DNA of 64,000 nt from contig CM049316.1 of the NCBI GenBank assembly GCA_026874595.1, positions 68,534,676 through 68,598,675 of the forward strand, given 5' to 3'. The stretch is from Sipunculus nudus (taxonomy: Eukaryota; Annelida; Sipuncula; Golfingiida; Sipunculidae). The notes under the pieces were generated by a model. The model made no database searches and was not told the DNA's origin. It was given only the letters and a program-made list of their open reading frames with translations. Position 1 is the stretch's first letter. Every line of letters starts with the position of its first letter. Positions 1,687-49,464 of this stretch are shown one piece after another. A program made the translations under genes and the position numbers.

Positions 1687-3636
1687 TGTATCGCCAGACA
1701 TAGTCTGGAGATACTATGGTTTTGGCACGGTCGCGCCGCCGCGGCCGCCGAGATTTCTTTTGGACACAATAACTCAAAAAATATTTCACGGATCTTTACC
1801 AAACTTGGTATATGTATAGATATGGGTGAGAGGACGATGCCTATTTAAAATGAGGTCATGACCTCAACTAGGAGAGTGACCTTGACATTGAATATGTTCA
1901 ATTTTGGGGAAAATCACACAAATTCTTTAATATCTCAAGAAATCTTGCATGGATTTATCCCAAAATCAACTTGATGGAAGATCATGGATAGGGTTGTCAT
2001 GTTCCAGAAACTGGTGGCGCCACCTATTATTCTTTACTTGTTTTCATGCCGTTTAATATCCCCAAAATAGCTACTTGACAGTACTGTGAGCATTATAAGT
2101 CAAAAACTAATGGGCAGATTTCTTTCATATTATGCAAATACATAGATATGGGTTATGGGATGATGTTTATTTAAATTGGGGTCATGACCTTTCCTATGAG
2201 AGTGGCCTTGACCTTGAATATTGCCATATATGGTGAAAATCACACAAAATCATTAATTTCTCAATAAGGGATGCATGCATTGGTCCAAAAATCAACTTGA
2301 CCGAAGATCTTGGATAGTAATGTCATGTACCGGAAACAGGTGGCGCCACCTTTATTCTTTTACTTGTTTTCTTGCCGTTTAATACCCAATCATTGCCACT
2401 TAACAGTACATTTATAACCTGTGAGCATTATAAGTCAAAAACTAATGGACAGATTTCTTTCATATTATGCATATACATAGACATGGGTTATGGGATGATG
2501 TATATATAAATTGGGGTCATGACCTTTCCTATTAGAGTGGCCTTGACCTTGAATATTGCCATATATGGTGAAAATTACACAAAATCATTAATATCTCAAT
2601 AAGGGATGCATGCATTGGTCCAAAAATCAACATGTTTGAAGATCTTGGAAAGTTTTGTCATGTACCGGAAACAGGTGGCGCCACCTGTTATTCTTTTACT
2701 TGTTTTGTGCCGTTTAATACCCCATCATAGCCATTTATCAGTACTGTGAGCATTATAAGTCAAAAACTAATTTACAAATTTCTTTCATATTATGCATATA
2801 CATAGATATGGGTTATAGGATAATGTTTATTTGAATAGGGGTCATGACCTTTCCAATGAGTGGTCTTGACCTTGAATATTGCCATATATGGTGAAAATCA
2901 CACAAAATCATTAATTTCTCAATAAGGGATGCATTGATTGGTCCAAAAATCAACTTGACTGAAGATCTTGGATAGTAATGTCATGTACCGGAAACAGGTG
3001 GCGCCACCTGTTATTCTTTTACTTGTTTTCGTGCCGTTTAATACCCCATCATTGCCACTTAACAGTACATTTATAACCTGTTAGCATTATAAGTCAAAAA
3101 CTAATGGACAGATTTCTTTCATATTATGCATATACATAGACATGGGTTATGGGATGATGCATATATAAATAGGGGTCATGACCTTTCCAATGAGTGGCCT
3201 TGACCTTGAATATTGCCATATATGGTGAAAATCACACAAAATCATTAATTTCTCAATAAGGGATGCATTGATTGGTCCAAAAATCAACTTGAACGAAGAT
3301 CTTGGATAGTGTTGTCATGAACGGGAAACAGGTGGTGCCACCTGTTATTCATTTACTTGTTTTCGTGCCGTTTAATACCCCATCATTGCCACTAAACAGT
3401 ATTGTGAGCATTATAAGTCAAAAACTAATGGACAGATTTCTTGCATATACATGGACATAGGTTAGGGGATGATGTATATTGAAATTTGGATCATGACCTT
3501 TTCTATGAGAATGACCTTTTTTATGAGTGTGGTCTGATATTAATTGTTGCTGAAGATGGGGGGCCTATTCTTAAAGGGGGGGGGGATTAATTGTCTGGCG
3601 ATACTATGGCACCTGCGGTGCCAAGAAATATCTAGT
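1687..3636 (+). mobile_element. Family D HINE-like element nested in family A
   Basis: The 5' end GTATCGCCAGA forms a hairpin with TCTGGAGATAC. The same sequence returns inverted near the 3' end (TCTGGCGATAC, about 3594-3604), followed by a GGCACC-tgc-GGTGCC hairpin and a CTAG terminus (3632-3635). The flanks match the uninterrupted paralogs at 29311-29320 and 54478-54486, where attaaTTccag is continuous. The insertion therefore lies between two T residues; the exact edge is ambiguous by 1-2 bases because both sides carry TT. Confidence 0.8.
2037..3540 (+). repeat. Tandem array of about 330-bp units in family D
   Basis: Four units and a partial one, with the phrase TTTACTTGTTTT recurring at about 2040, 2366, 2702, 3025 and 3359 (spacing 323-336). 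Each unit carries GGTCATGACC, CCTTGACCTTGAATATTGCC and, at its end, the palindrome GGTGGCGCCACC (2013, 2339, 2674, 2997; the last at about 3331 is GGTGGTGCCACC). There is no open reading frame across units. Confidence 0.85.
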
Positions 3637-5025
3637 TCCAGTAATAAATTAAAACTGGGATAGTAATTAGCACAATGATATTGTTTGTCCCTCATTCAAC
3701 CAACAGTGTGTATACTTTATTTGAAAAGATGTTTTATTTTATCAAATTTACTGAATCTTTTATTTTATTTTGGTGAATAAAATTAAGCATGTACTGAAAA
3801 CTTCTATGTGCAAAACTTTTTAATAGTGATTCAAGGAATAATCTTGTAGATGCCATGTTGTGGCATTATATTCTTTTAAATTCAGTTTAAACATTTGTGA
3901 TTTAAAAATAAAAAAAATATATGTGTATGCATAATATGACCCAATATGAGCTACACTCTGGATATATAATGATTGCAACTTTTGCAACAATTCTAATATA
4001 GTAACTTATAGTTTCAGTTTTTTTATTAAAAATATATAAAACTTGTAAATAAAAAAAAAATGATTCAGATAAAAACTTCTAAATGAAAAAATGTATATAT
4101 GCTAAAAAAATAGGATTATATATAAAAACTTAAATGCATTATTTATTTGAAAGTGAAATAAAGGTATTAGTCCATTCTGTCCACTTGCCTGTCCATCTGT
4201 AAATTTTCATATGCATCACAGTATCTAAAAACTTTTACTGTTTTTCTTCATGACAGTCTTGTCAGAGTATTAGTTTGCAATCATATATTTAGAACTTTAC
4301 TATAACCAAGTAGGAGGGCCCCTTTCCTCTTAGCTTTTCATATTCTTATAATAAATGAAAAACATTACAATAGAATATTTCGACATCCACCTTCATGCTG
4401 CCCTCACTTTTCCCTTCTCATAACCCCATCCCAGAGTCAGCCTCAGTAAGCAAGAACAAGATGAATCAGATATATTCATACTTAAATATTTTGTTTAACT
4501 ATTTGTCTATAGGTACCTATGTACATACCAGAAATTATGTCAATATTGTGTAATATGTAGACATAGTGGGCATCACAATAATGTACCTTGTCAAGACTAA
4601 AGAGATATTGTGTCATACAGCACAAATTCATAAATCACTTCATCAGCATAGTTAATCATAACATCATATCTGTCAAATTGAAAGCTTGCAGACTACCATA
4701 CACTTTAGATCCTTCAACAAATAGCCTTATCATCATTCTACTACTGCTCATTACTGCCGTCATTGCATTCATATTTGCTCAAATATATCACAATTTTCAA
4801 CCCCTCCTAAATAAATGAAAAATAAACTACTATATTTTACTCTATTAATCCATCAGTCGGGTAATTTCATTTATCATTTACTCACATATTACATTACATT
4901 CCTTTATAATAGCCCAACATGTCCATGATATTCATAATCTTTATCAACTCGATATAGTATCACAGTGGAGTAACATTTATAGTCCAATCACAATCAGCTG
5001 AGCGCCATGACCCATGGGTCCCTTG

Positions 5026-5680
5026 TCTTTAAAAAGTAATTAAGAGAGCTTAATGCCATACCGGTTTGGCATCCCCATCCGCTTCTGCACTTTTAAAAGG
5101 CTTATATCACCTACATGCTGGCATCTATCAATATTATATCATAATTCTGTATTATTATTGCAAAAAATGTTCCTGGTGTTTTGATCTTGACTTATGCTCT
5201 CAAGGTCAAGTCACAGTAGATTCTGGGCATTGCTTGTTCATTAGCACAATAACAACAAGGGTTTTGATTTGATTTTGTTCTAATTTAGTGGAAGGCATCT
5301 ATTAATGCCACTATCGAAATGATTAACTTTTGGTTGACCTTGACCCATATTTGCGCAATTTTTTAGCACTTTGGCATTATCACCAATGACTGAATATCAT
5401 CAAAAAATGGTTTTCAGTGCTTCCTAGGCATACTGTCAAATATTCTTGTATATCAGTATTGCCCCATACTAATTCCAAATAGTTTTTTTTTTTTAATTTG
5501 GTCACTGATATAATTTAGCACAGTGACCAAATACTGTCAAAAAATGGTTTTAGGCGCAGCTAAGGCATATTATTAAATATTCTTATGTTTCAGTATTGTT
5601 ACATTCTGATTTCACAGTTTTCTGAAATTAGGTCATTCTGACCTGATTTAGCCTTAAAACTTTGTTTATATTAAAAACTA
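5026..5680. other. Low-copy AT-rich spacer with a degenerate duplication
   Basis: No gene seen. A loosely conserved unit of about 130-140 bp occurs twice between about 5340 and 5610: each contains a CACTGAyy/AATACTGTCAAAAAATGG-type segment and an ATTAAATATTCTT-type segment. A small ORF at 5066-5272 has no support from splice signals or recognisable sequence. Confidence 0.5.
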
Positions 5681-6242: not shown

Positions 6243-8377
6243 TGTATCCGCCAAAACAGAGTTTTGCGGATACTATGTTTTCAGCTGCACGCCGCCGCTG
6301 CTGCCGCCGTAGGTGTCCGGAGAACTCATCCGTAACCGCTGGGCAGAATTTTACGAAACCCAGGATTATGTTCGGGTCACATGTGAACTGCTGCGCCCCG
6401 ATTTTGTTTTGACCTCTGACCTTTCCTCTGCACTCTGAGTCCGTTTGTGCGTCTGTTTCCACACATAAATCCACATATCTCCGATACCGTTTGACGGATC
6501 AGGAAATTTTTTTGCACAAATGTAGCCCTTGGAGAGCTTTATAACATACACAAAAAATGGTGGCGCCACCTGCAACCATGTTTGCACAGTGTCCATCTGT
6601 TCGTCTGCCTTGGGTTAAAATCACTCATATCTCTGCAGTGATTTGACTAATTCACCTGAAATTTGGCATGCGTATACATCCTGGATAGCTTTTTTGATTT
6701 TATGACAGGTGGCGCCACCTACATTCACGTTTATGCTGCAGACATCCAAGCTCATATCTCGGGAACCGTTTAACCGATCAGGAAAATTTTTTTTGCACAA
6801 ATGTAGCCCTTGGAGAGCTTTATAACATACACAAAAAATGGTGGCGCCACCTGCAACAATGTTTGCACAGTGTCCATCTGTTCATCTGCCTTGAGTTAAA
6901 ATCACTCATATATCTGCAGTGACTTGACTAATTCACCTGAAATTCGGCATGCGTATACATCCTGGATTGCTTTTCTAATTTTATGATAGGTGGCGCCACC
7001 TACATTCACATTTACGCTGCAGACATCCAAGCTCATATCTCGGGAACCGTTTGACCGATCAGGAAAATTTTTTTGCACAAATGTAGCCCTTGGAGAGCTT
7101 TATAACATACACAAAAAATGGTGGCGCCACCTGCAACCATGTTTGCACAGTGTCCATCTGTTCGTCTGCCTTGGGTTAAAATCACTCATATCTCTGCAGT
7201 GATTTGACTAATTCACCTGAAATTTGGCATGCCTATACATCCTGGATAGCTTTTCTGATTTTATGACAGGTGGCGCCACCTACATTCACGTTTACGCTGC
7301 AGACATCCAAGCTCATATCTCGGGAACCGTTTAACCGATCAGGAAAATTTTTTTGCACAAATGTAGCCCTTGGAGAGCTTTATAACATACACAAAAAATG
7401 GTGGCGCCACCTGCAACAATGTTTGCACAGTGTCCATCTGTTCATCTGCCTTGGGTTAAAATCACTCATATCTCTGCAGTGACTTGACTAATTCACCTGA
7501 AATTCGGCATGCGTATACATCCTGGATTGCTTTTCTAATTTTATGACAGGTGGCGCCACCTACATTCACGTTTATGCTGCAGACATCCAAGCTCATATCT
7601 CGGGAACCGTTTGACCGATCAGGAAAATTTTTATGCACTAATGTAGCCCTTGGAGAGCTTTATAACATACACAAATTATGGTGGCGCAACCTGCAACCAT
7701 GTTTGCACAGTGTCCATCTGTTCGTCTGCCTTGGGTTAAAATCACTCATATCTCTGCAGTGATTTGACTAATTCACCTGAAATTTTTGGCATGCGTATAC
7801 ATCCTGGATAGCTTTTCTGATTTTATGACAGGTGGCGCCACCTACATTCACGTTTACGCTGCAGACATCCAAGCTCATATCTCGGGAACCGTTTAACCGA
7901 TCAGGAAAATTTTTTTGCACAAATGTAGCCCTTGGAGAGCTTTATAACATACACAAAATATGGTGGCGCCACCTGCAACCATGTTTGCACAGTGTCCATC
8001 TGTTCATCTGCCTTGGGTTAAAATCACTCCTATCTCTGCAGTGATTTGACTAATTCACCTGAAATTCGGCATGCGTATACATCCTGGATAGCTTTTCTGA
8101 TTTTATGACAGGTGGCGCCACCTACATTCACGTTTACATTGCAGACATCCAAGCTCATATCTCGGGAACCGTTTGACCGATTGGGCCAAAATTTTGCATG
8201 TGTATAGATCTCACATAGCTCTTTATCATACGCAAAACTGGTGGCACTACCTGCAGCCATTTTTGCACAGCTCCTGTCTGTTTGTCTGCCATTGGATAAA
8301 ATCACTCATATATCGGCAGTGGTTTGACATATCTGCCTGAAATTTTGCAGGTTTGGGCCAAAGTTTTGCATGTGTAT
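6243..8377 (+). mobile_element. Family C HINE-like element, 5' end intact, 3' end lost at the retroelement
   Basis: It begins with the hairpin GTATCCGCCAAAAC-aga-GTTTTGCGGATAC (about 6244-6273), followed by a GC-rich stretch, then the tandem core. The expected 3' end (present at 22826-22868 and 49415-49464) is missing, because the LTR retroelement begins at 8378 within a core unit (gcatgtgtat is normally followed by agatct) and is itself broken downstream. Confidence 0.75.
6559..8300 (+). repeat. About 280-bp tandem satellite array with paired GGTGGCGCCACC palindromes
   Basis: About six highly similar units. Palindromes lie at 6559, 6708, 6840, 6989, 7120, 7269, 7400, 7549, (7680 mutated), 7831, 7962 and 8111, with spacing alternating between about 149 and 131 bp. 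Each 280-bp unit is therefore two diverged half-units. Small open frames of 70 codons recur in every unit only because the period leaves one frame open; they have no coding signature. Confidence 0.9.
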
Positions 8378-9535: not shown

Positions 9536-10231
9536 AATTAGCCTTAAAAAAAACTGGCTAATTACAGTGAGTTTCAGAAGTTTTGAACTGAGAAAACAGT
9601 ACTGAAACCAGACATTCATATACTCAAACCAGAGTTGATCTGAATTAATAATTGGAAATGACACCAAACTGATGTTATAGTGTATACTTGCTCAATGAAA
9701 TTACCCCACTATTAGGAGTTAATATTTATTCTGTGAGAATATTACCTGAAGCATAACATTGTTTCAGGATTAGCATATACCTTGAAGATTTGGCTAGAAC
9801 ACATGCATGTTTTGTGAGTAATGCTAGTTCAGTGATACCTGAACATCATTACTGATTTGATATAAACCCAGATTAGAGTGAACATTTTTGATGTTGTTAG
9901 ATACGCCCTGGTATAATTTTTCCTACACTGGTTTGTGATTGGTCACGTGGTAGGGTCTCTTTACAGGTAAGTTTACCCCTCCCGATTGGCATGGTAATCA
10001 TAGGTGCATGGTGTTTATTGATATCTTGATATCCATCCGTCCATCCGTCTGACCCTTCGTCCGACCTTCCGTCCGTCCGTCCGTATAAGTAGATTTTGAT
10101 GCGTAGAGCTACCGTAGTGTTATTGTACGGATACCGCCGGTTCGTTAGGTTGGCTTTGACAGTACGTATTTACGGATTTTTAAGAGCCGATATTACTAGA
10201 TACTGGAATCTTACTAGGTTAGAGCGTTACC
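9536..10231 (+). other. Retroelement untranslated leader
   Basis: No ORF of note. Contains a strong splice-donor-like ACAG|GTAAGT at about 9963-9972 and a TCCGTC-rich simple repeat at about 10030-10085, ending just before the gag start codon. Confidence 0.45.
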
Positions 10232-10597
10232 ATGGAAACGTTAGAGTCACTTGTTAGATGCGGGCAGGCCTTGGGGCTTAAGGACCAGGCTTTACAAGAT
10301 TATGTTGAGGCTAGACGGCGTGCGGATGAAGAACGTGAGGAAAGAGCTAGGCAACGTGAAATAGAGCGTGAGCAGCGGGAAATAGAGCGCGAGCGAGAGG
10401 CTAGAGCCCACGAATTAGAGGTTCTAAGGTTAAAGTCTGACTCTGGGGTTAAAGAAGAGAGAAGTAGGGATGTATTCCCGAAAATCCAGCTTCCACCTTT
10501 TGATGAGGCTCACGATCAGCTAGATGCGTTTCTTGAGCGATTTGAACGATTAGCTGTATGTCAAGGCTATGATAGGGAGAATTGGGGCTTCACCTGA
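10232..10597 (+). CDS. Retroelement gag N-terminal part (frameshifted)
   Basis: The ORF starts at an ATG in good context (ACCATGG) and runs 121 codons. Residues about 28-72 are an Arg/Glu-rich stretch (repeated REIERE-type heptads) predicted as coiled coil, followed by a segment with PKIQLPPFDE and FLERFERLA that resembles the start of Ty3/Gypsy gag capsid regions. In such elements gag packages element RNA into particles in the cytoplasm. The frame ends in a stop at 10597, while the homologous continuation is in the next frame from about 10582, in a short G run. No canonical slippery heptamer is seen, so a lesion is more likely than programmed frameshifting. Confidence 0.7.
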   Translation: METLESLVRCGQALGLKDQALQDYVEARRRADEEREERARQREIEREQREIEREREARAHELEVLRLKSDSGVKEERSRDVFPKIQLPPFDEAHDQLDAFLERFERLAVCQGYDRENWGFT

Positions 10598-13971: not shown

Positions 13972-15191
13972 TTTACGATTTTTTTTCTCTATTTTTGAGA
14001 CCTCAAAAGATGCTGTCATCTATTAACAGGGCACAAATTGTAACCATTGGACCTGGAATCTTCTCACTTTACATCTAGAGAGGTCCATGAAAAGTCTTCT
14101 TGGAAACCTGGAATTTGGTCTCTGTTACCCATATTCTTCCAGCTATGGGGCTCCAAAGTATCCCCCAAAATAATGAAAAATTTGATACAAAAGCACAAGT
14201 ATCTGAACAACTAAAGCATTGCTCACCATGATTCTTTGCATTGATATTAATCATGGAGTGTTTCATCAGTTTCTGCAGACTGGTTGCACCACCTGTATTT
14301 TTTTCAATTTTTTTTAACAATTTTTAGCTCAGCTGACTGAAAGTCATCTGAGCTATAGCGATCACTCTTTGTCCGTCGTCCGTCTGTCCGTCTGTCCATC
14401 TGTCCGTCCGTTAACCAGGCACAAATCGTAACCGCTGAACCTAGAACCTTGTAACTTGGGATTCTGAGAGGTCCATGAAAAATCTCCTTGGAAACCAGAA
14501 ATTAGGTCTCTGTTACCCATATCCTTCGAGCTATGGGGCCCCAAAGTACCCCCCAGAAAAGTAAAAAATTTCATACAAAAACTTCAATATCTCATTAACT
14601 ACTTGACTGATGGTCATGATTTTTGGCATACATATTGATCATGAGATGTTCCATCACTTCCTGCAGACTGGTGGCGCCATCTGTATTTTTCGATTTTTTT
14701 TACAATTTTTTCCTCTATTTTTGAGACGTTTAAAGATGCTGTCATCTGTTAACGTGGCACAAATCGTAACCGCTGGACCTAGAATCTTCATTCTCGACAC
14801 ACTGAGAAACCTATTAAAAGTCTCCGTGGAAACCATAAATTAGATCTCTGTTACCCATATCCTTCGAGCTATGGGGCCCCAAACTACCCCCCAGAAAAGT
14901 CAAAAATTTCAAACAAAAACTTCAATATCTCATTAACTACTTGACTGATGGTCATGATTTTTGGCATACGTATTGATCATGAGATGTTCCATCACTTCCT
15001 GCAGACTGGTGGCGCCACCTGAATTTTTCGATTTTTTACGAATTTAAAAATGTGAACAGCTGTTAACAGGGCACAAATCATAAAGAATGGACCTAGAATC
15101 TTCATTCTTGACACACTGAGAGGTCCATAAAAAGTCTGCATGGAAACCTGAAATAAGGTCTCTGTTACCCATATCCTTTGAGCTATGGGGG

Positions 15192-16490: not shown

Positions 16491-16499
16491 GTAGTGTTG

Positions 16500-20093: not shown

Positions 20094-21259
20094 AACCCCC
20101 CCAGAATAATGGAAAATTTGATAAAAACAAACTGCAACATCTCAATAACTACAACACTGATGGTCATGATTTTTGGCATACATATTGATCAAGAGGTGTT
20201 TCATCAGTACCTGCAGACTGGTGGTGCCACCTGTATTTTTTCAAATTTTCACAATTTTTTTTTCTCTATTTTCGAGACCTTTCAGGATGTAGTTATCTGT
20301 CAACAGGGTACAAATCGTAAGGACTGGACCTAGAATCTTCATTGTTGACACACAGGGAGACCCATGATAAGTCTCCATGGACACCTGAAATTAGGTCTCT
20401 GTTACCCATATCCTTTGAGCTATGGCACTCCAAAGTACAGCTCAGAATAATGGAAAATTTGATACAAAAGCTGAAGTATCTGAACAACTAATGCAGAGAT
20501 CACCATAATTGTTTTCATGGATATTGATCATGGAGTGTTTCATCAGTTTCTGCAGACTGGTGGCACCACCTGTATTTGTTCTGGTTTTTTTACGAATTTT
20601 TTCTCTATTTTTGAGACCTTTAAAGTTATGAACATCTGTTAACAGGGCACAAATAATTAAAACTGGACCTAGAATCTTCATTCTTGACACACAGGGAGAC
20701 CCATGAAAAGTCTCCATGGAAACCTGAAATTAGGTCTCTGTTACCCATATTCTTTAAGCTGTATGGCTCCAAATTGGCCCCCAGAATAATGGAAAATTTG
20801 ATACAAAAACTGCAGTATCTCAATAACTACAACACTGATGGTCATGATTTTCGGCATACATATTGATCAACACTTGTTCCATCAGTTTCTGCAGACTGGG
20901 TGCGCCACCTCTATTTTTTTCAAATTTTTACGATTTTTTTTCTCTTTTTTTGATACCTTTAAAGATGTGGTTATCTGTCAACAGGGTACAAATCACAACA
21001 ACTGGACCTAGAATCTTCATTCTTGTCATGCAAGAAGGCCCATGAAAAGTGCCTGTGGAAACTTAAAATTAGGTGTCTGTAACCCATATCCTTCAAGCTA
21101 TAGGACTCCGAAGTATCCCTCAGAATAATGGACAATTTGATACAAAAGCTGAAGTATCGGAACAACTAATGGGGAGATCACCATGATTCTTTGCATGGAT
21201 ATTGATGTTTGTAAGTGTTTTTATTAGTTTCTGCAGACTGGTGGAGCCACCTGTATTTT

Positions 21260-22868
21260 TGTACCCGCCAAAACGAAGTTTTGTGGATACTTTGTTTTTG
21301 ACCGGGTTCCTCCGCCGTTGCTGCGTTCGTTTCCAGAGAGCTCCTCTGGGACTTGATTTTATCAGCTTTCCAAGCTCATATCTCGGGAACCGTTTGACTG
21401 ATCAGAAATAAAATTTATACTAATGTAGCCCTTGGATAGCTCTATAACATACACAAAAAATGGTCGCCACCTGTAACCATGTTTGCACAGTGTCCATCTG
21501 TTCATCTGCCTTTGGTTAAAATCACTCATATCTCTGCAGTGAATTGACTAATTCACCTGAAATTCGGCATGTGTATACATCCTGGATAGCTTTCTTGATT
21601 TTATGACAGGTGGCGCCACCTACATTCTCATTCACGCTGATGACATCCAAGCTCATATTTCGGGAACCGTTTGACCAATCGGGCCAAAATTTTGCATGTA
21701 TATAGATCTAACATAGCTCTTTATCATACGCTAAACTGGTGGCACCACCTGCAACCATTTTTGCACAGCGTCTGTCTGTTTGTCTGCCGTGCAATAATGT
21801 CACTCATATCTCAGCAGTGGTTTGACATATCTGCCTAAAATTTTGCAGTTTTATACATCCTGGATAGCTTTCTTGATTTTATGACAGGTGGCACCACCTA
21901 CATTCACGTTCACGCTGATGACATCCAAGCTCATATCTCGGGAACCGTTTGACCGATCGGGCCAAAATTTTGCATGTGTATAGATCTAACATAGCTCTTT
22001 ATCATACACAGAACTGGTGGCACCACCTGCAACCATTTTTGCACAGCGTCTGTCTGTTTGTCTGCTGTGCAATAAAGTCACTCACATCTTGGCAGTGGTT
22101 TGACATATCTGCCTAAAATTTTGCAGTTTTATACATCCTTGATAGCTTTCTTGATTTTATGACAGGTGGCGCCACCTTTGTTATAGTTTATGCTGCAGAC
22201 ATCCAAGCTCATATCTCAGGAACCGTTTGAACGATTGGGCCAAAATTTTGCATGTGTATAGATCTCACATAGGTCTTTATCATACACAAAACTGGAGGGG
22301 CCACCTGCAACCATTTTTGCACATTTTGCACAGCGTCTGTCTGTTGGTCTGCCATGGCCTAAAATCACTCATTTCTCTGTAGTGGTTTGACATAACTGCC
22401 TAAAATTTTGCAGGTTTATACATCCTGGATAGCTTTCTTGATTTTATGACAGGTGGCGCCACCTACATTCTAGTTAACGCTGCATACATCCAAGCTAATA
22501 TCTCAGGAACCATTTGACCGATTGGGCCAAAATTGTGCTTGTGTTTAGATCTCACATAGGTCTTTATCATACACAAAACTGCAACCATTTTTGCACAGCG
22601 TCTGTCTGTTTGTCTGCCGTGGGCTAAAATCACTCATATCCATGTAGTGGTTTGACTTTTCTGCCTAAAATTTTGCATTTGTATACAACTTGGACAGCTT
22701 TCTGGATTTGTGGTAGGTTGCACAACCTACATACACATTTAGGCTGCAGACATCCATGCTAATATGCAACATACCTCACTCTGTTTCCCCTTGCCACTCA
22801 ATCCATGCCTCACTTCACTCTGATTTTGGCAGATACACGTAGTCACTTGTCGGCTACCCGTATTCTAG
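21260..22868 (+). mobile_element. Complete family C HINE-like element
   Basis: Starts with GTACCCGCCAAAAC-gaa-GTTTTGTGGATAC hairpin and ends with the inverted terminal copy TGATTTTGGCAGATACA (22821-22837), a GTAG..CTAC hairpin and CTAG at 22865-22868. The core contains diverged half-units with palindromes at about 21608, 21738, 21886 and 22166, more decayed than in 6559-8300. The flanks are the T tract of a family A core, so this is a nested insertion. Confidence 0.8.
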
Positions 22869-24115
22869 TTTTTAAAGTTTACACATTTTTTCTCTATTTT
22901 TCAGATATATAAATACAGACTAAATATTGGCCTGTTGGTTAATCTGTTTGATGCTTCAGTTGAATGGGTATCTACCATTCTGATGATAAAATTTCCTTTT
23001 GTGAATCTCTTCCCAGTCAGCTGAGCGTCATGACCCATGGGTCACTTGTTTTTTCTCTATTTTGATACCTTAAAAGATGCCTTCATCTGTCAACAGGGCA
23101 CAAATTATAACCTCTGGACCTGGAATCTTCTAACTTTACATCCAGATAGGTCCATAAAAAGTCTCCTTGAAAACTTAGAATTAGGTCTCTGATACCCATA
23201 TTCTTCAATTCATGGGGATTCCGAAAAAAACCCTAGAATAATGGAAAATTATATACAAAAGCTCAAGTATCTGAACAACTAATGCATTGATCACCATGAT
23301 TCTTTGCATGGATATTGATCATGGGGTGTTACTCAAGTTTTGCTGACTGGTGGGGCCACCTGTATTTTTTTTATTTTTTACAATTTTTTTCTCTATTTTT
23401 GAGACCTTAAAAGATGCCGTCATCTGGTTTTTAAAAGGGCACAAATCGTAATGACTAGACCTAGAATCTTCTTTCTTGAGATGCTGGGAGGCCCATGAAA
23501 AGTCTCCTTGGAAACCTGAAATTAGGTCACTGTCACCCATTTTGTCCGAGCTATGAGGCTCAGAAGTACCCCCAGAATAGTTGAAAATTTGATACCAAAG
23601 TAGGGCACAAATCATAACCATGGGGCCCAGAATCTTCTAACTTATATCCTGAGATTCCTCAAAAGTTCTCCCCAGAAACCTGAAATTGGGTCACAGTGAC
23701 CTATATTCTCAGATTTTTGGGGTGTGTGTGAGCACCCCAGAAATAATGCAATATGCACACAAATAGCCAGATTCCTCATGAAAGGCTGGTTGGATTGTCA
23801 TCAAATTTGTTGTGCTTATGGGTCTTGAATAACTTAAGCAAATATCCATGAACAATGATGCCACCTGTCTTAATTGGCTGTCTGTGCAAGGACATATTAT
23901 CAACATGTCACTTGTTCTTCAAGACAGTCTTGTCAGAGTATTAGTTTTGCCATCATATATTTAGAACCTTACTATAACCAAGTAGGAAGGCCCCTTTCCT
24001 GTTAGCTTCTAATATGCTTATATATATGAAAAACATTACAATGGAATATTTTGGATATTTTGCATTTGCAAAAATTTTAAACTTCAGCTGAGCGCCGTGA
24101 CCCATGGGTCTCTTG

Positions 24116-25672: not shown

Positions 25673-27533
25673 TAGCGAACCTGTGATTAGCGAACCTGTG
25701 AGCTTATGCAATGGTGTGTCATCATCCGGCATCCGTTGGCCGTCGTCCATCGTCCGTCATGTGTACGTTAACCCATACTATCTTGAAAACAGCAAGAGTT
25801 AGCATTACAAAATTTTATGAAAAAAATTATTCATCTAAAAAACTCTATAGGATTTTGCTTATTTTTTGGCTAACTGCATTTTCTTAGATTTTATAGGGAA
25901 AAAGCTTAAAAACCTTTAAAAATCTTCTTCTCTGAAACTGTTCAGCCAAATTGTCCAATATTTCACAGTAAGGACCCTTGGAACAATCTCTCTCAAGTTT
26001 GTTTGATTGGTTTAAGTTTGGTGATTTTTGGCTGAGTTACAGGAAGTTAAACTTAGTCATCTGTCAAAAAAAGCATACTGAAATTACAATCTCAGAAACG
26101 GCTGGAGCTAACATCACCAAATTTTAGGCAAATGTTTGTCACATGAGTCATATCTGAAATTGAGGTATTGGTGGCGCCACCTGCATCAGCCTTTTTTGTA
26201 AGGGGGTCATCAGTGCCCTTATCATACTGAGGGCTTCAAAAAACTTCTTCTCTGAAACCATATGGCCAAATTGTTTAATATCGCATGGAAATGATCTTAG
26301 GGTACTGCTTTCTGAAGTTTGTTCAAATGGTCTCAGTTCAGTGACTTTTCGCTGAGTTATGGGAAGCTTAATTTAGTCGTATGCCATGACAGCCCATTTT
26401 AGCTCAGTGACCACATAGATCTTCTTCTCAAAAACCGCTGGGCCAAATTCTTAAATCTCACACATTAATTATCCTTAGAACACCCTTAGATAATTCAAGG
26501 GTGTTCAAATGGTTTTGGTTCAGTGATTTTTGGCTGAGTTATGGGAAGCTTAACGTAGCCATTTTTCTGTATTTTCCTATATGAGTTATAAACCTGCAAA
26601 ACATTTTTGAATGACACCACTGAGGCTAATTTGTTTAATATTTTACAATGACTGGAGCCAGCATCATGAAATTTTATGCAAAAAATTAGCCATCTGAAAA
26701 ACTCTGCATTTTCTTAGATTTTGTAGGGAAAAAGCTAAAAAAAATTATTTAAATCTTTTCCTCCAAAACGGTCAAGCCAAATTGTTCAATCTCAAGTTTA
26801 TTCAAGTGGTTAAATTTTGGCCGAGTAAAGGGAAGTTGAACTTAAGTCATCTGTCAAAAAAGCATACTAAAATGACAATCTCAGAAAAAAACGGAGCTAT
26901 CATCACCAAATTTTATGCCATTGTTGGTTACATGAGTCATATATGAAATTCAGGTATTGGTGGCATATCACCTGCATTGACATTTTTTTGTACTGGGGTC
27001 ATTGGTCATCTGTACATTAATCCATGATTTCTCAGGTACAGCAGGAGCTACCATCCCCAGATTTTATGCAGTAATTTGTCACATATAATATGTTGTGGGT
27101 TTTAGCTTATTTTTTTGTTATCTGGATTTATTCAAATTTTATAGGGAAAAAGCTGAAAAACTTTAAAAGTCTTCTTCTTGTAAACAGTCCAGCCAAATGG
27201 TTCAATATTTTACAGAAATGGTCCCAGAGGCAAGCCTTCTCAAGTTAAATTTGTTCAAATGGTTTGCATTTGATGAATTTTAGCGGAGTTACATGAATTT
27301 GAACTTAGTCATTTGGCCAAGTAAGCATACTGACATAGTAATCTCAGAAATGACAGAACCGAGCATTTCCAAGTATTGTGCAAAGGTTGGTCACATGACT
27401 CATATTTGAAGTTGCAGATTTTGTGGTGCCACCTTCATTGACCTGTTTTTTTATGGGCAAAAACCTCATAATTTTAGCCTCTTTCTGCTTATAATGTTTA
27501 TGATGAAACTGTCAAGTTGAATCGTTCAGTTTT

Positions 27534-31312: not shown

Positions 31313-32004
31313 CTCAGTGCAGTAGCCTGAACCAGTAATTTGTCACAGTTCACTAGGGGCAACTGCCTTTCTCACCTAAGCCTGGTCAGCCCCGTGCATC
31401 AGACTTAAGGTAAGTTTGATGTATTATCCTGATATTTTGACCTGTCTATGTGTCTTTGATGGCTTTCTCATTCACAAGACAGGTGTCGCCACCTACAATG
31501 ACTTTTGCAGTGTATGCGCCTGCTTATTTCTACAGAGGAATTTGATATATCAGCCTGAAATTGGCATATTTATACCTATCAAATGGCTTTGTTGTATACA
31601 AGACTGGTGGTGCCACCTACAATCATTTTTGTATAGTGTGTGTCCCTGCTTATTTCTCGTAAGGGGTTTGATAAATCAGTCTTAAATTGGGCATATGTAT
31701 ATATCTCTGATAGCTTCGTTGTATACAGGACTGGTGGTGCCAGCTGCAATCATTTTGTGTTGTGTGCACCCATGCCAGAATTTCAGCAGTGATGTTTGTG
31801 TAATTGTTTCTTATTCAAATTGTTTAGTACTTGCATTGTTATTGTACATGAAAAGTAATGGTCCAGCATTGAAGCATAATTACCGATGTATATCCCAATG
31901 CACAGGTTCGCATTAGGCCTGTAGGCCTTGTTTTTAAAGAAATTTTAAGTCATGATCTGATTGATTGACTCAAAAATGTAGATGAACTGTTTTTGTGTAT
32001 TCAG

Positions 32005-35500: not shown

Positions 35501-36476
35501 CTCAGTGCAGTAGCTGCATTCTATTTATAGCACTGGCAGACTGTCCACTGCATCAGATTTGGCACCAAAGTTCAGCCATGATCTATTAATAGCTTTGGTA
35601 GAATGCCAAATGTGTCAGATTATGCAAAAGGTCAAGAGTTCACTCAATGCAGCCAGGTACAGGTCAAAAGTTCACTCAGTCTAACCAGGTGCAGGTCATA
35701 AGTTCACTCAGTGCAGTAGCCTGAGCCAGCACAGTTCACTCGGGGCAACTGCCTTTCTCACCTAAGCCTGGTCAGCCCCATGCATCAGACTCAAGGTAAG
35801 TTTGATGTATTGGCCTGACATATTTGACCTGTCTATGCATCTTTGATGGCTTTCTCATTCACAAGACAGGTGTCGCCACCTACATTCACTTTTGCACAGT
35901 GCATGCCCTTGCTTATTTCTGGCAGAGGAATTGGATACATCAGCCTGAAATTGGGCATATTTATACATATCGGGTAGCTTTATTGTGTACAAGACTGGTG
36001 GCGCCACCTATAATAATTTTTGCACAGTGTATGTCCCTGCTTATTAAGCAGGAGGGGTTTGACATATCAATCTGATTGGGCATATGTATTTATCTTTGAT
36101 AGATTCATTGTATACAAGATTGTTGGTTCCAGCTACAATCATTTTTGTGTTGTGTGCACCCATGCCAGAATTTCAGCAATGATGTTTGTACAATTGTTCT
36201 TGTTCTTGTTCAGAATGTTTAGTACTTGCATTGTTCATATACATGTAATCAATTGCACAGGTTTGCATCAGGCCTGTAGGCCTTGTTTGTTGTGTGCACC
36301 CTTGCCAGAATTTCAGCAGTGATGTTTGTTTAATTGTTTCTTGGTCTAAGTGTTTAGTACTTGCATTGTTCATATATACATGTTACACATGTTCTTGAAA
36401 ATAAATGGTCCAGCACTGAAGCGTTATACCTAGTATAATCTCATTGCACAGGTTTGCATTAGGCCTGTAGGCCTTG
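32510..36476 (+). mobile_element. Nested family B elements
   Basis: 5'-type starts at about 32510 (TGCGAACC), 33116 (TAGCCAACCTGTGAGC) and 34456 (TAGCAAAGCTGTGAGC). At the 3' side a duplicated end: AGGCCT-gt-AGGCCTTG at about 36272-36288 and again at 36460-36476. GGTGGCGCCACC lies at about 33569 and 35997. DR2-type motifs are perfect at 35455-35468, 35629-35642 and 35661-35674. The exact number of nested copies cannot be fixed by eye. Confidence 0.65.
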
Positions 36477-36908: not shown

Positions 36909-37950
36909 TTTAGCCCTCAGCCCTTAGGCTGATGGGCTATTGTCGTCACCCAAGCTGTCTGTCCATCCGTCCGGCGTCCGTTAACTTTTACCTTGTGAGG
37001 GGGATATCTTGAAAAGGATTCACCGTCAGAATTTTATTTCCTCGGTAAAGATGTATTTCAACAAAATCTCGGTCAAGTTCGAAGATGGGTGACCTTGACC
37101 TATTTTTCTACATTTTAGAGCTGATTATAGAAAAACACTTAGATGCTTATTACTCAGGAACCATTTGGTGGATTTTCACAAAACTTACTATGATTATTGG
37201 GACTGATAGTCTGTACCTGCTATACAAGTTTGGTGGCCCCTGCTACAATTTCTGATTTTTAATGAATTTTTATCCGATTTTTCAACTTTGGGCTTGTGAG
37301 CGGGATATCTTGAAAAGGATTCACCGTAAGAATTTTATTTTTTCGGTGAAGATGTATATTGACAAAATCTCAGTCAAGTTCGAAGATGGGTGACCTTGAC
37401 CTATTTGTCTACGTTTTAGAGCTGATTATAGAAAAAACATTTAGAAGCTTATTTCTCAGGAACCATTGGACGGATTTTCACAATACTAACTATGATCATA
37501 GGTACTGATGGTCTGTAACTGCTGCACAAGTTTGGGGGCGCCACCTGCAATTTCTGATTTTTTATTGAATTATTCTTGGATTTTTCAACTTTGGCCTTGT
37601 TAGCGGGATATCTTAAAGAATTCTCAATAGGAATTTCATTTCTTTGGTGAAGATGTATATCGACAAAAATCTCGTTCATGTTCGAAGATGGATGACCTTG
37701 ACCTACTTTTCAAGGTCACAGAGCTTATAATAGAATAAAACTTAGAAGCTTATTTTTCAGGAAGCATTTGGTGGATTATTATGAATCATGGTACATACCT
37801 CTCCATTTTAAATTTATAACTGAGACATGTACAGATATACATCCATGTGAGAACAGATGTTTAGTACTTGTTACTGTTACCACCTCTAAACACTGTTCTT
37901 TTGGCTGAGGGCTTTTGTCAGCTTCTGCTGAGGCAATTTGGCTGTGTGTA
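36909..37950 (+). mobile_element. Family E HINE-like element
   Basis: 5' end TAGCCCTCAGCCCTTAG folds with GGCTGATGGGCT; the inverted copy GGCTGAGGGCT is near the 3' end (about 37912-37922) followed by a TCAGC-ttct-GCTGA hairpin. The precise 3' base is not clear. Core units carry GGATATCTTGAAAAGGATTC, CTCAGGAACCATT and TGACCTTGACCTA; one unit ends in GGGGGCGCCACC at 37534-37545. Confidence 0.6.
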
Positions 37951-40939: not shown

Positions 40940-42328
40940 TAGCGAACCTGTGAGCTTATGCGATGGTGCGGCTTCATTTGTTGTGGGTCTTGAGTCATCT
41001 GTACGTTAACCATAGCTATCTCAAAAATGGCAGGAGCTTCCATCAAAGATTTTTTTGGAAATAATCAGTCATCTGAAAAACCCTATCTGATTCTGTTTAC
41101 TTTTTTCTAACTGCATTTTCTTAGATTTTATAGGGAAAAAGCTTAAAAAAGCTTTAAAAAACTTCTTCTCTGAAACTGTAAAGCCAAATTGTCCAATATT
41201 TGACAGAAATGATCCTTGGAACAATGTCTCTCAAGTTTGTTTGAATGGTTCCAGTTCGGAGAATTTTGGCCAAGTTACATGAAGTTGAACTTTGTCATCT
41301 GTCAGAAAAAGCATACTAAAATTAGAATCTCAGAAATGGCTGTAGCTATCATCACCAAATTTTATGCCAATGTTTTTCACATATGTCATATCTGAAATAG
41401 AGGTATTGGTGGCGCCACCTACATTGATCTGTTTTTTACAAGCAATAATGTAATTTTAGACTCTTCTAGCTGTTACACTGTTTTATGATGAAACTGTTAA
41501 GCTGATTGGTTTAAACTTTACAAGAATTATTCTGTGGTAGGGTTCTGCCAATTTATAAGAATAGATTGGGTAAATGCAGCTTTAAAAAATCAGTGTAGCC
41601 AATTGAAAAAAGGCTTTCAGAGTTTCAGATTTAACAAAATGCCAAGTTTCAACATGCAGAGTCAAGAGGTCACTAAGTTCAACCAGGTGAGGTCCAGACA
41701 TCACCATGGCAACTGACCTTGCTCTGTCTGGTGTCTAGACAATGTGTCTAGATGTCTAGACACATCGCCTAGACATCTAGACACATCATTTAGATCTAGA
41801 ATGCCCAGATTAGAACTAGTCGAACTATATCCTTCAACTGTTTGAAAAAACTTTGTTTGCATTTTTAGCGAATCTGTGAGCTTATTCGATGGAGTAGCAT
41901 CTTCCGCCATGTGTCATAGCTATCTCAAAAAGGGCAGGAGCTAGCATCACCAAATATTTTGCAAAAAATCATCTAAAAAATTCTATCAGATTTTGCTTAT
42001 TTCTTGGCTAACTGCAGATTTTATAGGGAAAAAGCTGAAAAACATTTTAAAATGTTCTTCTTCGAAACCATGCTGCCAAATTGTCCGTTCAACTGTCCCA
42101 ATAATCCTCCCTGGCAAAAAGAACATAACTGAAATATCCTGACTGATACATCCTAGTTTTAAAATGTCCTAGTCCAAAATGTGCAGGTCCAAAATGTCCA
42201 TTTTGCTGAAATCATAATGACGAAGGTTGATATGCAGGACATGAGAGGATCAATATTAAATTTTAAAAATAAACCTCGATTCATACTCCCAAACTTTATA
42301 CAGGTTCGCATTAGGCCTATAGGCCTTG
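40940..42328 (+). mobile_element. Family B elements, one nested in another
   Basis: 5' ends at 40940 (TAGCGAACCTGTGAGC) and 41866 (TAGCGAATCTGTGAGC); shared 3' end CAGGTTCGCA, AGGCCT-at-AGGCCTTG ending 42328. Contains GGTGGCGCCACC at about 41409. Confidence 0.65.
41733..41800 (+). repeat. Cluster of TCTAGA palindromes
   Basis: Units of about 10 bp such as TGTCTAGACA and ATCTAGACAC repeat six or seven times. A paralogous cluster is at 47999-48060. Confidence 0.75.
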
Positions 42329-42529: not shown

Positions 42530-43662
42530 GCTGGGTAACCTGTGGACTTGTGCGATGGTGTGGCGCCATCCGTTGGCCGTAGTACGTCATCTATATGTTA
42601 ACCCATACTATCTTGAAAACAGCAGGAGTTAGCAGAAATGATCCTAGGGTAGTGCTTTCTGAATTTTGTTCAAATGGTCTCAGTTCAGTGACATTTGGCC
42701 AGGTGGTGAAAAGCTGAATTTAGTCATATGGCATAACAGCTCATTTAAGCTCAGTGGCTACAGAGATCTTCTTCTCAAAAACCACTGGGCCAAATTCTTA
42801 AATCTCACACATTTATTATTCTCAGATGTTGATAATTCAAGTTTGTTCAAATGGCTTTGGTTCAGAGCTTTTTGGCTGAGTTACAGGAAGCTGAACTTAG
42901 CCAGTTTGCTGTATCTTCCTTTATGAGTTATAAACCTGCAAAATGTTTTTCGACTGATGCCACCTAAGCCAGTTTAGATGTTTCTTGCGAATAAATTAGC
43001 CAGTTAGGATTTTTTTCACCAGATCTCCCCATTGCTAGCCATTGGTGAACTGGCGAATAGGCAGGGCCAGCACTGCAGCTGTGCCAGATTATGCAACAGG
43101 TTAAGAGCTCACTCAATGCAGCCAGGTACAGGTCAAAATTTCACTAAGTCTAGTGAGGTGCAGGACAAGAGTTCACTCAGTGCAGTAGCTTGAGCCAGCA
43201 TTTGTAACAGTTCACTTGGGGCAACTGCCTTTCTCACCTAAGCCTGGTCAGCCCAGTGCATCAAACTCAAGAGAATTTTGATGTATTGGCCTGATATTTT
43301 GACCTGTCTATGCATAGTCGCCACCTACAGTGACCTTGCACAGTGTATGTGTCTGCTTATTTCTTCAGAGGAATTTGATATATCAGCCTGAAATAGGGCA
43401 AATTTATACATTTTGATAAGGTCGTCATAAACAAGACCTGTGGCACCACCTGCAATAATTTTGCACAGTGTATGACCCTGCTTATTTCTCAGGAGGGGAT
43501 ATCACTTTTATCAGCCTGAAATTTGGCATATGTATACATCTCTGATACCTTTCGTCATATACAAGACATGTTGGCCTACTTGAAAAGTAATGGCATAGCA
43601 CTGAAGCATTATAACTGGTGTATAAACCATTGCACAGGTCTGCATTATTCCTGTAGGCCTTG
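42530..43662 (+). mobile_element. Family B element, degenerate 5' end
   Basis: Starts near GGTAACCTGTGGACTTGTGC and ends GCACAGGTCTGCATT, CCTGTAGGCCTTG at 43662, 54 bp before the CARD2 exon. Degenerate DR2-like motifs occur at about 43098-43180. Confidence 0.6.
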
Positions 43663-43716
43663 TTTTTAGGTTTCACAGAATAAGCAAATTAAACTTTTTA
43701 TCCCTTTATTTGCCAG

Positions 43717-43989
43717 GTTTTGATGACAAAGGATACAGGGGCCGTTTTGTGAAACATATGGACACTTTAATAGCCACTATAGATTTCAACAAATTGTTAG
43801 AGAGGGTGACTTTCCATGGACTTTTGGAAGAGGAGACTGTGGACATTTTTTATCAGATGTCTAATAGCCGTGATCGAATATCATTCCTGTTTGGCAAAAG
43901 TTTAGCTCTTGATATACACAAATATGAGCAGTTGCTGGATATTTTGGGCCAAACTGATATGTACCCAGAACTTCAAGAATTGCTTGAAG
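43717..43989 (+). CDS. CARD domain exon 2 of multi-CARD gene
   Basis: A 273-nt exon (91 codons) with acceptor TTTATTTGCCAG (ending 43716) after a pyrimidine tract and donor GAAG|GTATGA (43990), phase 1 at both ends. The translation is CARD-like across its length: RFVKHMDTLIATI for helix 1, FNKLLERVTFHGLL for helix 2, the acidic turn LEEETVDIFYQM, then a helix with LFGKSLAL, YEQLLDIL and a final LQELLEG. It is closer to CARD than to DD or DED by helix spacing and the LLEEE turn. Like its neighbours it would act in cytoplasmic homotypic assembly. The codon use and conserved hydrophobic pattern contrast sharply with the AT-rich repeats around it. Confidence 0.83.
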
Positions 43990-45027
43990 GTATGAGTTTT
44001 TATAGACTTTAATTGCCAAGCTTTTTGTAGCACATTTGAGCTATATTTATAATCCATTGTCCATCATCCTTCAATCTGTCTGTCCTTTAAAGTACCACAT
44101 TTTGAAACTGTTAAACTTACGGATCCAAAATTTGACATATATTTTGTCCATTATGGTTAAAGCCAATCACCGATCCTAAGAACACTACACAAACACATCA
44201 GCAGTGAGAAAGCTAACATTATCACTGCTGTCAAGCTTGGTAAAAATAGTCCCGCTTGACACAGCGGTATAACTTTTATAATGAGAGTCTACCTCATGGA
44301 TGGTTGAACAGAACTGTTTAAATACATTTGGGCACATATTTCTTGTGTAGTATGAAGACAGCAAATGACTGTGTCAAGTGGTACAATTTGTAGCTAATGT
44401 CAAGCCAAATATCGCTCCTTGCTTTCATTTTTTAAGCTCTTTTTAGTGCGTCCCCAATGTATTCAAAACCACACTTCTGGGATAATCGTAAAAGTTAAAA
44501 ATAGTGTTTACTCTTGTCGACAACTGTACATTCAGTGGGATATTCCTGGCAGCAAATGTCACATACCGATATATACCAGGTCAAAAACGCCTGAATATGC
44601 TATGTCAAGCTGAATCAGTTGAAAGTCAAAAGGAAAGTGTTATGAAAGCAAATTACGCAGTGCTGTTAAAGGTGCCAACCCCCTGTATTTCGATGGAACC
44701 AATATTACCAGTTGCATGCGGTACACAGTTAATGAAAGAGCAATGCCGTGTTCAGTATATACCAGGTTGGAAACACTTGAATATGCTGTGTCAAGCTGAA
44801 TCAGTTAAAAGATGGGAGGAAGGTGTCATGAAATGAATTACGCTGTGCCGTTGTAAAAAATTACCAACCCCCCACATTAAGATGGAACCAATGTAACCAG
44901 TTATATGTGATGCACAGTTAATGGAAGAGGCACTTCGTGTTAAGACCATGTAAACAATGTTACCAACTGCACACAGTGTAAAATAAATGATACAGCAACA
45001 GGAAACATGTTTCAACGTGTTCTTTTT
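43990..45027. other. Intron, mostly low-copy, with a 186-bp tandem duplication
   Basis: 44575-44950 holds two diverged copies of a 186-bp unit (each opening after TATACCAGG, with TGTCAAGCTGAATCAGTT and a GATGGAACCAAT segment). The open frame 44504-44836 spans both copies, but it shows no splice support or recognised domain and is probably fortuitous. Confidence 0.55.
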
Positions 45028-46626: not shown

Positions 46627-46639
46627 TTTATCTTTTAAG

Positions 46640-47002
46640 GTAATCACCAGGGGAAAGATGCTTCCGAGGACGAATACCACACAGTTGAACAGATGAAATG
46701 TCTCTTGAAAAAAAACAGAAATTTCTATGTGAGGAAACTTCAGGTTAACCAAGATATGTTAACTGCTCTACACAGAAGTGGAGTCATTTCTTTCCAAGAC
46801 TTTTCATTCCTTCCAACCTTACCAGATAATAAGAAAAATGGAAAAATTATAGATGTGGTGTTAAAATTAAGTGACCAAATGTTCAGTATTTTCCTTGAAG
46901 TCCTGGAGACATATCAGCCTGACCTTTACAGACAGCTGAGGAAGCCACAGAAGCCACAGAAGCAATCACAAACACAGAAGCAATTGCTTACACAGCAGAC
47001 AG
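46640..47002 (+). CDS. CARD-like domain exon 3 of multi-CARD gene
   Basis: A 363-nt exon (121 codons), acceptor TCTTTTAAG (ending 46639) and donor ACAG|GTATTA (47003), phase 1 at both ends. The alternative AG at 46650 would be phase 0 and is rejected. About 18 polar residues precede a divergent CARD-like fold: MKCLLKKNRNFYVRKL, NQDMLTALHRSGVI, FQDFSFLPTL, IDVVLKLS, FSIFLEVLETY, LYRQLRKP. The C-terminal 20 residues are Gln/Lys/Pro repeats (KPQKPQKQSQTQKQ), probably a flexible tail. Compared with the first two CARDs, helices 3-4 are more divergent, so another death-fold class is possible. The frame stays open 53 nt past the donor. Confidence 0.75.
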
Positions 47003-47460
47003 GTATTAATTTTAAAGTTTCTTACGATATATACTTGAGAGAAATAAGTATATGATTATATAAATGTAAATAAATATGTACCGTAGACCCCTTTTTTTAT
47101 GGTTGCAAGCCCCCTGAGTTTGCAAGGTCCCTTTAAGGAGTTCCCACTAAGGTCCAAATACTAAAAAACTCCCTTAAATCTACACCCAGACTCTGTCCCA
47201 GGCCCAAGTGTAGTGATAGTCAGCTGCACTGAGCAAGTAAATCAAGACATAGCTACTTCAATGTATAATAAAATAAAAAGTTATGATCATCAAGGTTAAA
47301 TATGTGGCCTCATTCCATTATATACCTCAGTTTTCCCAAAAATTTCTTAAGCTCAATCCCCTTATAGGAGGATAATTATTAAGAAAAATAAAGCATTTTC
47401 CATACTTAAAATCAGTCTTGACAAGGTTTAATTTAAACTCGAAATATTTCCTTACATCTT
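47003..47460. other. Low-copy intron sequence
   Basis: AT-rich; no family termini or open frame recognised. Confidence 0.5.
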
Positions 47461-47998: not shown

Positions 47999-48060
47999 GT
48001 CTAGACAATGTGTCTAGACGTCTAGACACAGCGTCTAGAAGTCTAGACAATGTCTAGATG
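47999..48060 (+). repeat. Second cluster of TCTAGA palindromes
   Basis: TGTCTAGACA/GTCTAGACGTCTAGAC-type units, paralogous to 41733-41800. Confidence 0.75.
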
Positions 48061-48127
48061 CAGAATTCCCAGATAATTGGAACTATATCTTTCAACTGTT
48101 TGAAAAAACTTGGTTTGCATTTTAAGT

Positions 48128-49464
48128 GAATCGGATTTATCATCAGGTCACATGTGAACTGCTGCATTTCTGGATGACCTCTGACCTTCCTCACTGCCCA
48201 GCGTCCATTTGTGCGTCTGTTTCTACACATAAACCCACATATCTCCTGAACCTTTGACCGATCAGGCTAAAAATTTTGCACTAATGTAGCCCTTTGATAG
48301 CTTTATAACATATACAAAAAATGGTTGGGCCATCTACAACCATTTTTGGACAGCGTCCATCTGTTCATCTGCCTTAGGATAAAATCACTCATATCACTCA
48401 TATCTCAGCAGTGATTTGAACCTGAAATTTTGCAGGTTTATACATCATGGACAGCTTTTTCGATTTTATGACAGGTGGCGCCACCTACATTCATGTTTTC
48501 TCTGCACACATCCAAACCCATGTCTTGGGAAACATTTGACCGATTAAGCCAAAATTTTGCATGTGTATAGATCTCACATAGCTCTTCATCATAGGCAAAA
48601 CTGGTGGCGCCACCTGCAACCACTTATGCACAGCGTCCATCTGTTCATCTGCTTTGGGATAAAATCACATCTCAGAAGTGGTTTGACTTATGCACCTGAA
48701 ATTTTGCAAGTTTATACATCCTGGACAGCTTTCTCGATTTTATGACAGGTGGCGCCACCTACATTCACATTTACTCTGCAGACATCCAAGATCATATCTC
48801 GGGAACCAATTGACCAATTTGGCCAAAATTGTGCATGTGTATAGATCTCACATAACTCTTCATCATAGGCAAAACAGGTGGCGCCACCTGCAACCACTTA
48901 TGCGCAGCGTCCATCTGTTCATCTGCTTTGGGATAAAATCACTCATATCTCAGAAGTGGTTTGACTTATCCACCTGAAATTTTGCAGGTTTATACATCCT
49001 GGACAGCTTTTGCGATTTTATGACAGGTGGCACCACCTACATTCACGTTTACTGTGCAGACATCCAAGCTCATATCTCTGGAACCATTTGACCGATTGGG
49101 CCAAAATTTTGCATGTGTATAGATCTCACATAGCTCTTCATCATAGACAAAACTGGTGGTGCCACCTCCAACCACTTATGCACAGCATCCATCTGTTCAT
49201 CTGCTTTGGGATTAAATCACTCATATCTCAGCAGTGTTTTGACTTATCCACCTGAAATTTTGCAGGTTTATACATCATGGACAATTTTCTCGATTTTATG
49301 ACAGGTGGCACCACCTACATTCATGTTTACACTGCAGACATCCATGCTAATATGCAACACACCTTACTCTATTCCCCATGCCACTTAATCCATGCCTCAC
49401 TTCACCTGTCCCACTCTGATTTCTGCGGATACACATAGTCGCTTGTCGACTACCCATATTCTAG
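48128..49464 (+). mobile_element. Family C element, 5'-truncated, with tandem core
   Basis: Half-units with palindromes at 48474, 48603, 48748, 48877, 49026 (GGTGGCACCACC), 49154 and 49304; spacing alternates about 129 and 145-150. The 3' end has TTTCTGCGGATACA (inverted 5' end), the hairpin TAGTCG-cttg-TCGACTA and CTAG at 49461-49464. The typical 5' hairpin is missing. Confidence 0.75.

Follow-up and report, generated by a model that had tools for sequence, protein, structure and literature searches.

A palindrome-bearing core probably shared by the central repeats of Helentron-like elements in Sipunculus nudus

A 64,000-nucleotide stretch of the Sipunculus nudus genome (assembly GCA_026874595.1, contig CM049316.1, positions 68,534,676 to 68,598,675; hereafter the window) carries repeat families, here called A to F, whose units end in the palindrome GGTGGCGCCACC. 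The core that precedes and includes this palindrome is most probably a related ~100-bp subunit of the satellite-like central repeats of HINEs, the non-autonomous Helentrons described from oysters and Drosophila (PMC7492417, PMC4067079), spread by rolling-circle transposition and perhaps swapped between elements. Families A, C, D and E bear HINE ends: subterminal inverted repeats (subTIRs), a microsatellite, a tandem array, a 3' palindrome and a T-rich target. A sequence-only reading had proposed a core module common to five families, A to E, with unrelated ends; the module is real and is supported, even with its palindrome masked, in A, C, D and E and in a further family, F (31.4-59.0 kb), B being weak.

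With up to two mismatches, GGTGGCGCCACC occurs at 65 sites in the window, against 0.47 expected from dinucleotide shuffles (largest count 3 in 100 shuffles), which bears out the more than 20 occurrences first reported. From 77 palindrome-like sites (up to three mismatches), 68 units of eight types were kept: 14 C1, 15 C2, 12 A, 9 F2, 4 F1, 7 B, 5 D and 2 E, the C array being a dimer of two related units, C1 and C2. The kept units hold 62 of the 65 sites, the isolated ones lying at 1729, 42559 and 59244; the sites left out of the set are the overlapping 49158 together with 1729, 8602, 8763, 11754, 15222, 42559, 49684 and 59244. The palindrome, perfect in 27 of the 68 units, had been placed in every unit cited for the module; the E copy at 37534 and the A copy at 14670 carry one mismatch each. 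Most of its variation falls on the central CpG, which has decayed more than any other position (35 CG, 16 TG, 11 CA, 6 other), in the pattern that deamination would give. The right flank is asymmetric and reads TRYA, with T at +12 in 67 of the 68 units, R at +13 in 63 (33 G, 30 A), Y next in 65 and A at +15 in 62.

A profile of the upstream box gave 102 supported matches on the + strand and six weak ones on the - strand (E 0.027-0.44, with a cut-off of E up to 1), and the reversed window, used as a control, reached 3.4 bits at best. The box is also present without the palindrome. When perfect palindromes of at least 10 bp were sought 40-140 bp downstream of box matches, 31 of the 51 found were centred at 87-92 bp. 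In a family-weighted, box-anchored alignment (75 units found, 74 assigned and aligned, one unassigned unit dropped), the landmarks follow one another in the order TATCTC, AAC, GAT, AAATTTTGCAT, TAT.ATC and palindrome. Conservation is highest at the palindrome, the first of 121 windows among these box-picked units, and peaks further at TCTC, AAC, GAT, AAA.TTT and CAT, so that both the landmark order and the peaks expected at the landmarks were recovered. Mean relative entropy falls from 1.69 in the palindrome to 0.64 in the module on its left and 0.39 in what remains on its right.

The similarity extends beyond the palindrome. When leave-one-family-out profiles were built with the 12-mer masked and held-out units were scored against shuffles, all units of C (29/29), F (13/13), D (5/5) and E (2/2) and 10 of the 12 A units scored above every shuffle; the possibility that only the 12-mer is shared, raised beforehand, does not hold for these five families. 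Some random window segments match the scores of true units, with maxima of 27.7 to 48.1 bits; this is put down to further copies of the core in the window, as the box search shows, and the shuffles are the cleaner control. Comparison of consensus left flanks makes C1, C2, F1 and F2 close kin (z 4.3-8.4) and links A, D and E to C (z 3.2-4.6, except C2-E, z -0.2). The pairings A-F1, A-F2, A-E, F2-D and C2-E are not supported. Links between the families run mainly via C. In the 30-nt right flank, just 4 of 28 family pairs have a score reached by at most one of 100 shuffles.

A 5' subTIR with an inverted partner and a microsatellite was found at 12 left ends in A, C, D and E, eight by the end finder and four by eye (21261, 36911, 59048 and 61080; a rough start, 36917, was used for one of them in the terminator-distance test given below). 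Of the finder's five other + strand rows, three are duplicates, a fourth falls within a C unit and the fifth is a TCTAGA repeat, which also makes up the finder's sole - strand row, at 48055. A 3' subTIR followed by a short palindrome is found in D (3593, no mismatches), E (37902, one), C (22823, two; 49419, by eye) and the A class. The orientation of the arrays relative to the ends is constant, the 12 left ends and the 102 supported box matches being all on the + strand. The target is T-rich for D and for C copy 2, which lies inside an A unit.

D is an insertion of ~1.95 kb bounded on the left by GTATCGCCAGAC..GTCTGGAGATAC (5' subTIR and inverted partner) and a GCC-rich microsatellite, and on the right by the 3' subTIR GTCTGGCGATAC, the hairpin GGCACC-TGC-GGTGCC and CTAG/TT. 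Its two paralogous empty sites, 29190-29440 and 54356-54606, show no target duplication. C copies 1 and 2 share the left-end type GTATCCGCCAAAAC..GTTTTGCGGATAC. The right end of copy 2 consists of ATTTTGGCAGATAC (22823; 2 of 14 mismatches against its partner in copy 1), a hairpin and CTAG/TTTT; beyond it the A unit resumes, copy 2 being nested in a T-run of that unit. E opens with AGCCCTCAGCC..GGCTGATGGGCT and a GTCC-like microsatellite (by eye) and closes with TGGCTGAGGGCT at 37902 and a hairpin. The A class has 11 right ends in the window, of the type CAGCTGAG, CCCATGGG, CTTG/T and all on the + strand, four of them recognised by their left-end repeat partner (up to two mismatches) and seven by common sequence.

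1688..3635, + strand: D element, a HINE with both ends, absent at two paralogous sites, without target duplication
1816..3518, + strand: D central array, unit ~334 bp, palindromes at 2013, 2339, 2674, 2997 and 3331 (the last with one mismatch)
2095-2189, 2430-2524, 3089-3183 and 1769-1866, + strand: D half-units lacking the main palindrome, with GGTCATGACC at the matching offset
6244..8370, + strand: C copy 1, left end (subTIR and inverted partner, GCC microsatellite) and 280-bp dimeric C1+C2 array with 13 palindrome units
21261..22868, + strand: C copy 2, left end (by eye), array and right end, within a T-run of an A unit
48137..49464, + strand: C copy 3, array and right end, ATTTCTGCGGATAC at 49419, hairpin and CTAG/TTTT (by eye)
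59048..59085, + strand: C-class left end immediately after an F unit (by eye)
36911..37939, + strand: E element, 301-bp units, palindromes at 37232 and 37534; 3' terminus approximate
14325..15190, + strand: A left end, TAGCTCAGCTGACT..AGTCATCTGAGCTA and GTCC microsatellite, then A array (338-bp units; palindromes at 14670 and 15008)
20097..21260, + strand: A array, palindromes at 20220, 20559, 20898 and 21240
23015..23050, + strand: A-class right end, AGTCAGCTGAGCG, TGACCCATGGGTCA and CTTG/T, one of 11 such places
60028..61080, + strand: A left end (arms differing by three mismatches) and A units, palindromes at 60372, 60713 and 61060

The left ends of C and D match with a score of 16.5 against 1.9 (sd 1.1) in shuffles, none of 200 shuffles reaching it, and those of A and E match weakly (7.0 against 2.1; 1 of 200); because of these matches, two end classes, C/D and A/E, are recognised. 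The remaining four pairings among A, C, D and E are not significant (200 shuffles). The termini first described as unrelated are thus matched in C/D and, weakly, in A/E. In the CORE and V superfamilies of short interspersed elements (SINEs), likewise, one central domain is found with differing heads and tails; unlike these SINEs, the carriers found here have Helentron ends and tandem arrays.

The spread of the core may be pictured in this way. A HINE consists of a central tandem array flanked on the left by an end with subTIR, inverted partner and microsatellite and on the right by an end with a second subTIR and a hairpin. It enters T-rich DNA as a rolling-circle copy, the target not being duplicated; here an unseen autonomous partner would provide the rolling-circle movement. 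As the array travels with the ends, one transposition can spread several core units (two in E, five in D, 13 in C copy 1). Gain, loss or exchange of arrays among ends would explain why two end classes now contain related cores. Swapping of the core is plausible, as is very old common descent of whole elements.

The carriers and their central repeats are of an already described class, the HINE/pearl-type Helentrons (PMC7492417, PMC4067079, PMC5139131; the likenesses and differences given here refer to the parts of these papers that were consulted). Cg_HINE of Crassostrea gigas is alike in its left end with subTIR and inverted repeat, its GTCC-like microsatellite (types GTCY, GTCC and GTCK), its satellite-like array, its right subTIR and palindrome, its insertion at TT in T-rich targets without target site duplication and the fixed orientation of the array relative to the ends; in its cluster CL4, otherwise different monomers have just two boxes in common (PMC7492417). 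It differs in its monomers, mostly of 140-180 bp against repeat periods of ~127 to 339 bp here, and in its occurrence in both orientations, the ends recognised here being all on the + strand; the portion of the text examined says nothing of a palindromic core spanning two end classes (PMC7492417). The HINE/DINE-1 elements of mites and Drosophila also have subTIRs, a near-terminal 3' palindrome, a TT target and duplication-free empty sites; their hosts are different animals, and the likeness noted is one of anatomy (PMC4067079). The pearl elements (CvA, DTC84) and the BIV160/Cg170 satellites of bivalves resemble the present case in that satellite-like repeats are found in mobile elements and conserved boxes in divergent monomers, and DTC84 has a conserved palindrome near the repeat junction (PMC5139131). 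A review of Helitrons reports, as found here, the same array type in different elements, there also in differing directions, and names no palindromic core in its examined part (PMC12628747).

The module had been thought to lack any named description. This stands for the exact string GGTGGCGCCACC in the open-access library searched, where a single paper, an unrelated one, was listed for it (figures and supplements excluded; published monomer alignments, e.g. in PMC7492417, sit in figures, outside the text search for the module), and not for its carriers, which belong to the HINE/pearl class.

Several observations weigh against an origin of the core in HINE central repeats. No Helentron Rep/helicase was recognised in the 11 open frames of at least 120 aa (by eye; five of the 11 were also Pfam-scanned). 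The empty-site support comes from D; the left and right ends of A are known separately, individual A arrays being unpaired with both; no right end was found for C copy 1, and C copy 3 has no left end. Around the B or F arrays in the window, no HINE ends were assigned by the end finder or the end comparison. Family B is also the weak part of the claimed sharing: with the 12-mer masked, only one of its seven units exceeds all 196 shuffles, five exceed the 95% level of the shuffles and three that of random window segments, and among seven left-flank pairings only that with C2 has support (z 2.8). Four published BIV160/CvA primers (primers only, not full monomers) matched the window no better than 12 shuffled windows. 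Relatives of the module numbered zero in three viral and two prokaryote contig scans, a result that says little because these collections consist of viruses and prokaryotes.

Of the whole core, it is probably the palindrome and its right flank, TRYA, that are kept for a reason. Its first rank among 121 windows suggests selection, as had been proposed for the core as a whole; this ranking is not fully independent, since palindrome-anchored units served to train the box profile, and it is tempered by the comparison of three C arrays (14 of the 16 listed C dimers), in which one palindrome takes rank 49 and the other rank 8 among 269 windows. The rank of 49, the occurrence of the upstream box without the palindrome and the extension of the similarity beyond the palindrome would all be expected if the similarity reflected shared history only, with satellite monomers diverging without function and the palindrome kept by chance or by gene conversion within arrays. 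This explanation is possible, though it is the less probable one: it sits poorly with the first rank across families, subject to the training of the profile, and with the T found at +12 in 67 of 68 units, outside the selected 12-mer.

The most likely reason for keeping the palindrome would be the binding of a protein to double-stranded DNA, predicted because the flank is asymmetric and because seven of eight unit types give no RNA-fold signal. A hairpin-RNA role, proposed at first, was dropped: when one unit per type was folded on both strands, z lay between -1.24 and 1.57 in these seven types, F1 being the exception (-3.3). A ribozyme or other RNA family was likewise rejected, with no Rfam match in the window at the gathering score. 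The E-box CAGGTG was rejected because +13 is G in 33 and A in 30 of the 68 units, so that an E-box is not kept.

It seems unlikely that palindrome and flank are a selected binding site for a host protein such as one of a putative CTCF type. CTCF orthologues are present in molluscs (PMC10658182), and on the minus strand the slot reads TRYAGGTGGCGCC, the core of which agrees with YAGRKGGCRS, the final ten positions in the consensus for human CTCF, CCASYAGRKGGCRS (PMC6746451). The R at +13 is allowed by the Y of this motif, unlike in the E-box, and all 18 + strand and 34 of the 35 - strand matches to YAGRKGGCRS lie inside modules (30 shuffles: mean 1.37, largest 5), an enrichment that follows in part from the palindrome-based selection of units. 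No module agrees with the full human 14-mer at more than 11 of its 14 positions, whichever strand is read. Across the window, with modules counted, a score of 11 is attained by 75 14-mers and one of 12 by three, all of them outside modules. Moreover, CA at the central CpG on the + strand would break a C of the motif on the minus strand, and a search of the open-access literature returned nothing linking Helentrons and CTCF.

Four of the 12 left ends begin 8-31 bp behind a core palindrome, a spacing comparable to the ~8-35 bp between 3' palindrome and terminus in mite HINEs (PMC4067079, in the part consulted). The palindrome might accordingly act inside the element as the HINE 3' hairpin does at its end, halting rolling-circle copying prematurely and giving rise to truncated and head-to-tail elements. 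The excess of left ends behind palindromes has a P of 0.0046 relative to plain TT positions; longer T-runs account for much of it (P 0.018 for TTT, 0.069 for TTTT and 0.24 for TTTTT), and the element at 21261 is a nested one, with the A unit continuing beyond it. This role is very unlikely.

The slot that holds the palindrome contains GGTGGCGCCACC-TRYA in most families. Three D half-units (starts 2095, 2430 and 3089) carry another palindrome, GGTCATGACC, at the equivalent offset, +90, and TGAGGTCATGACCTCA lies at +90 relative to the box at 1769; as the D half-units belong to one element, alternative palindromes at the slot are a lead, not proof.

Families B and F and the further sites of their units are as follows.

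25889..27463, + strand: B units, palindromes at 26170 and 27422
32975, 33567, 34876, 41408 and 49747: further B palindromes
31400..31756, + strand: F array, units ~127 bp, palindromes at 31482, 31606 and 31733
35869-36147, 43439, 50720-50860, 52752-52890 and 58784-59038: further F units

Short arrays of 21-bp inverted units like TCTAGACA lie near B-type repeats, at 41732-41800 and 47999-48053. The A-class element with ~684-bp central repeats is present in three apparent copies, 27534-30560, 51067-55933 and 1-5026, the last carrying the D insertion and the one at 51067 containing F units.

Self-comparison of the window at E 1e-8 gave 422 direct matches and no inverted one, with large duplicated blocks such as 27907-29693 and 53074-54861 (93%). 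This one-sided orientation is likely to have come about through serial block duplication together with nested same-strand insertion in T-runs. CARD-like open frames lie on the + strand at 31986-32444 (E 3.6e-4, under the Pfam cut-off) and 46639-47052 (E 3.2e-7); that at 43626-44009 (+ strand) has no Pfam match at E 1e-3. Each of the frames at 31986 and 43626 follows an F unit within ~250 bp, so the two may have been duplicated as one piece, exon with repeat. A polyprotein remnant of a long terminal repeat (LTR) retroelement occupies 10223-12222; its frame 10576-12219 matches SCAN, zinc-knuckle and integrase H2C2 models, and no reverse transcriptase match was obtained in 10576-12219 or in 10223-10594.

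A more far-reaching proposal, quite unlikely as it stands, is that Helentron-borne repeats hold a fixed slot ~84-90 bp after the TATCTC box for a putative palindromic protein-binding site, and that nested and duplicated insertions would have laid dozens of co-oriented CTCF-like sites among CARD-domain exons.

If the core is, as seems most probable, a subunit of HINE central repeats, what looked like a string of palindromes becomes a piece of known transposon anatomy. It would also provide a case of one central-repeat core common to two Helentron end classes, which bears on whether such arrays are inherited with their ends or captured. If the palindrome turns out to be bound, these elements would offer a way for regulatory or architectural sites to become scattered in an animal genome.

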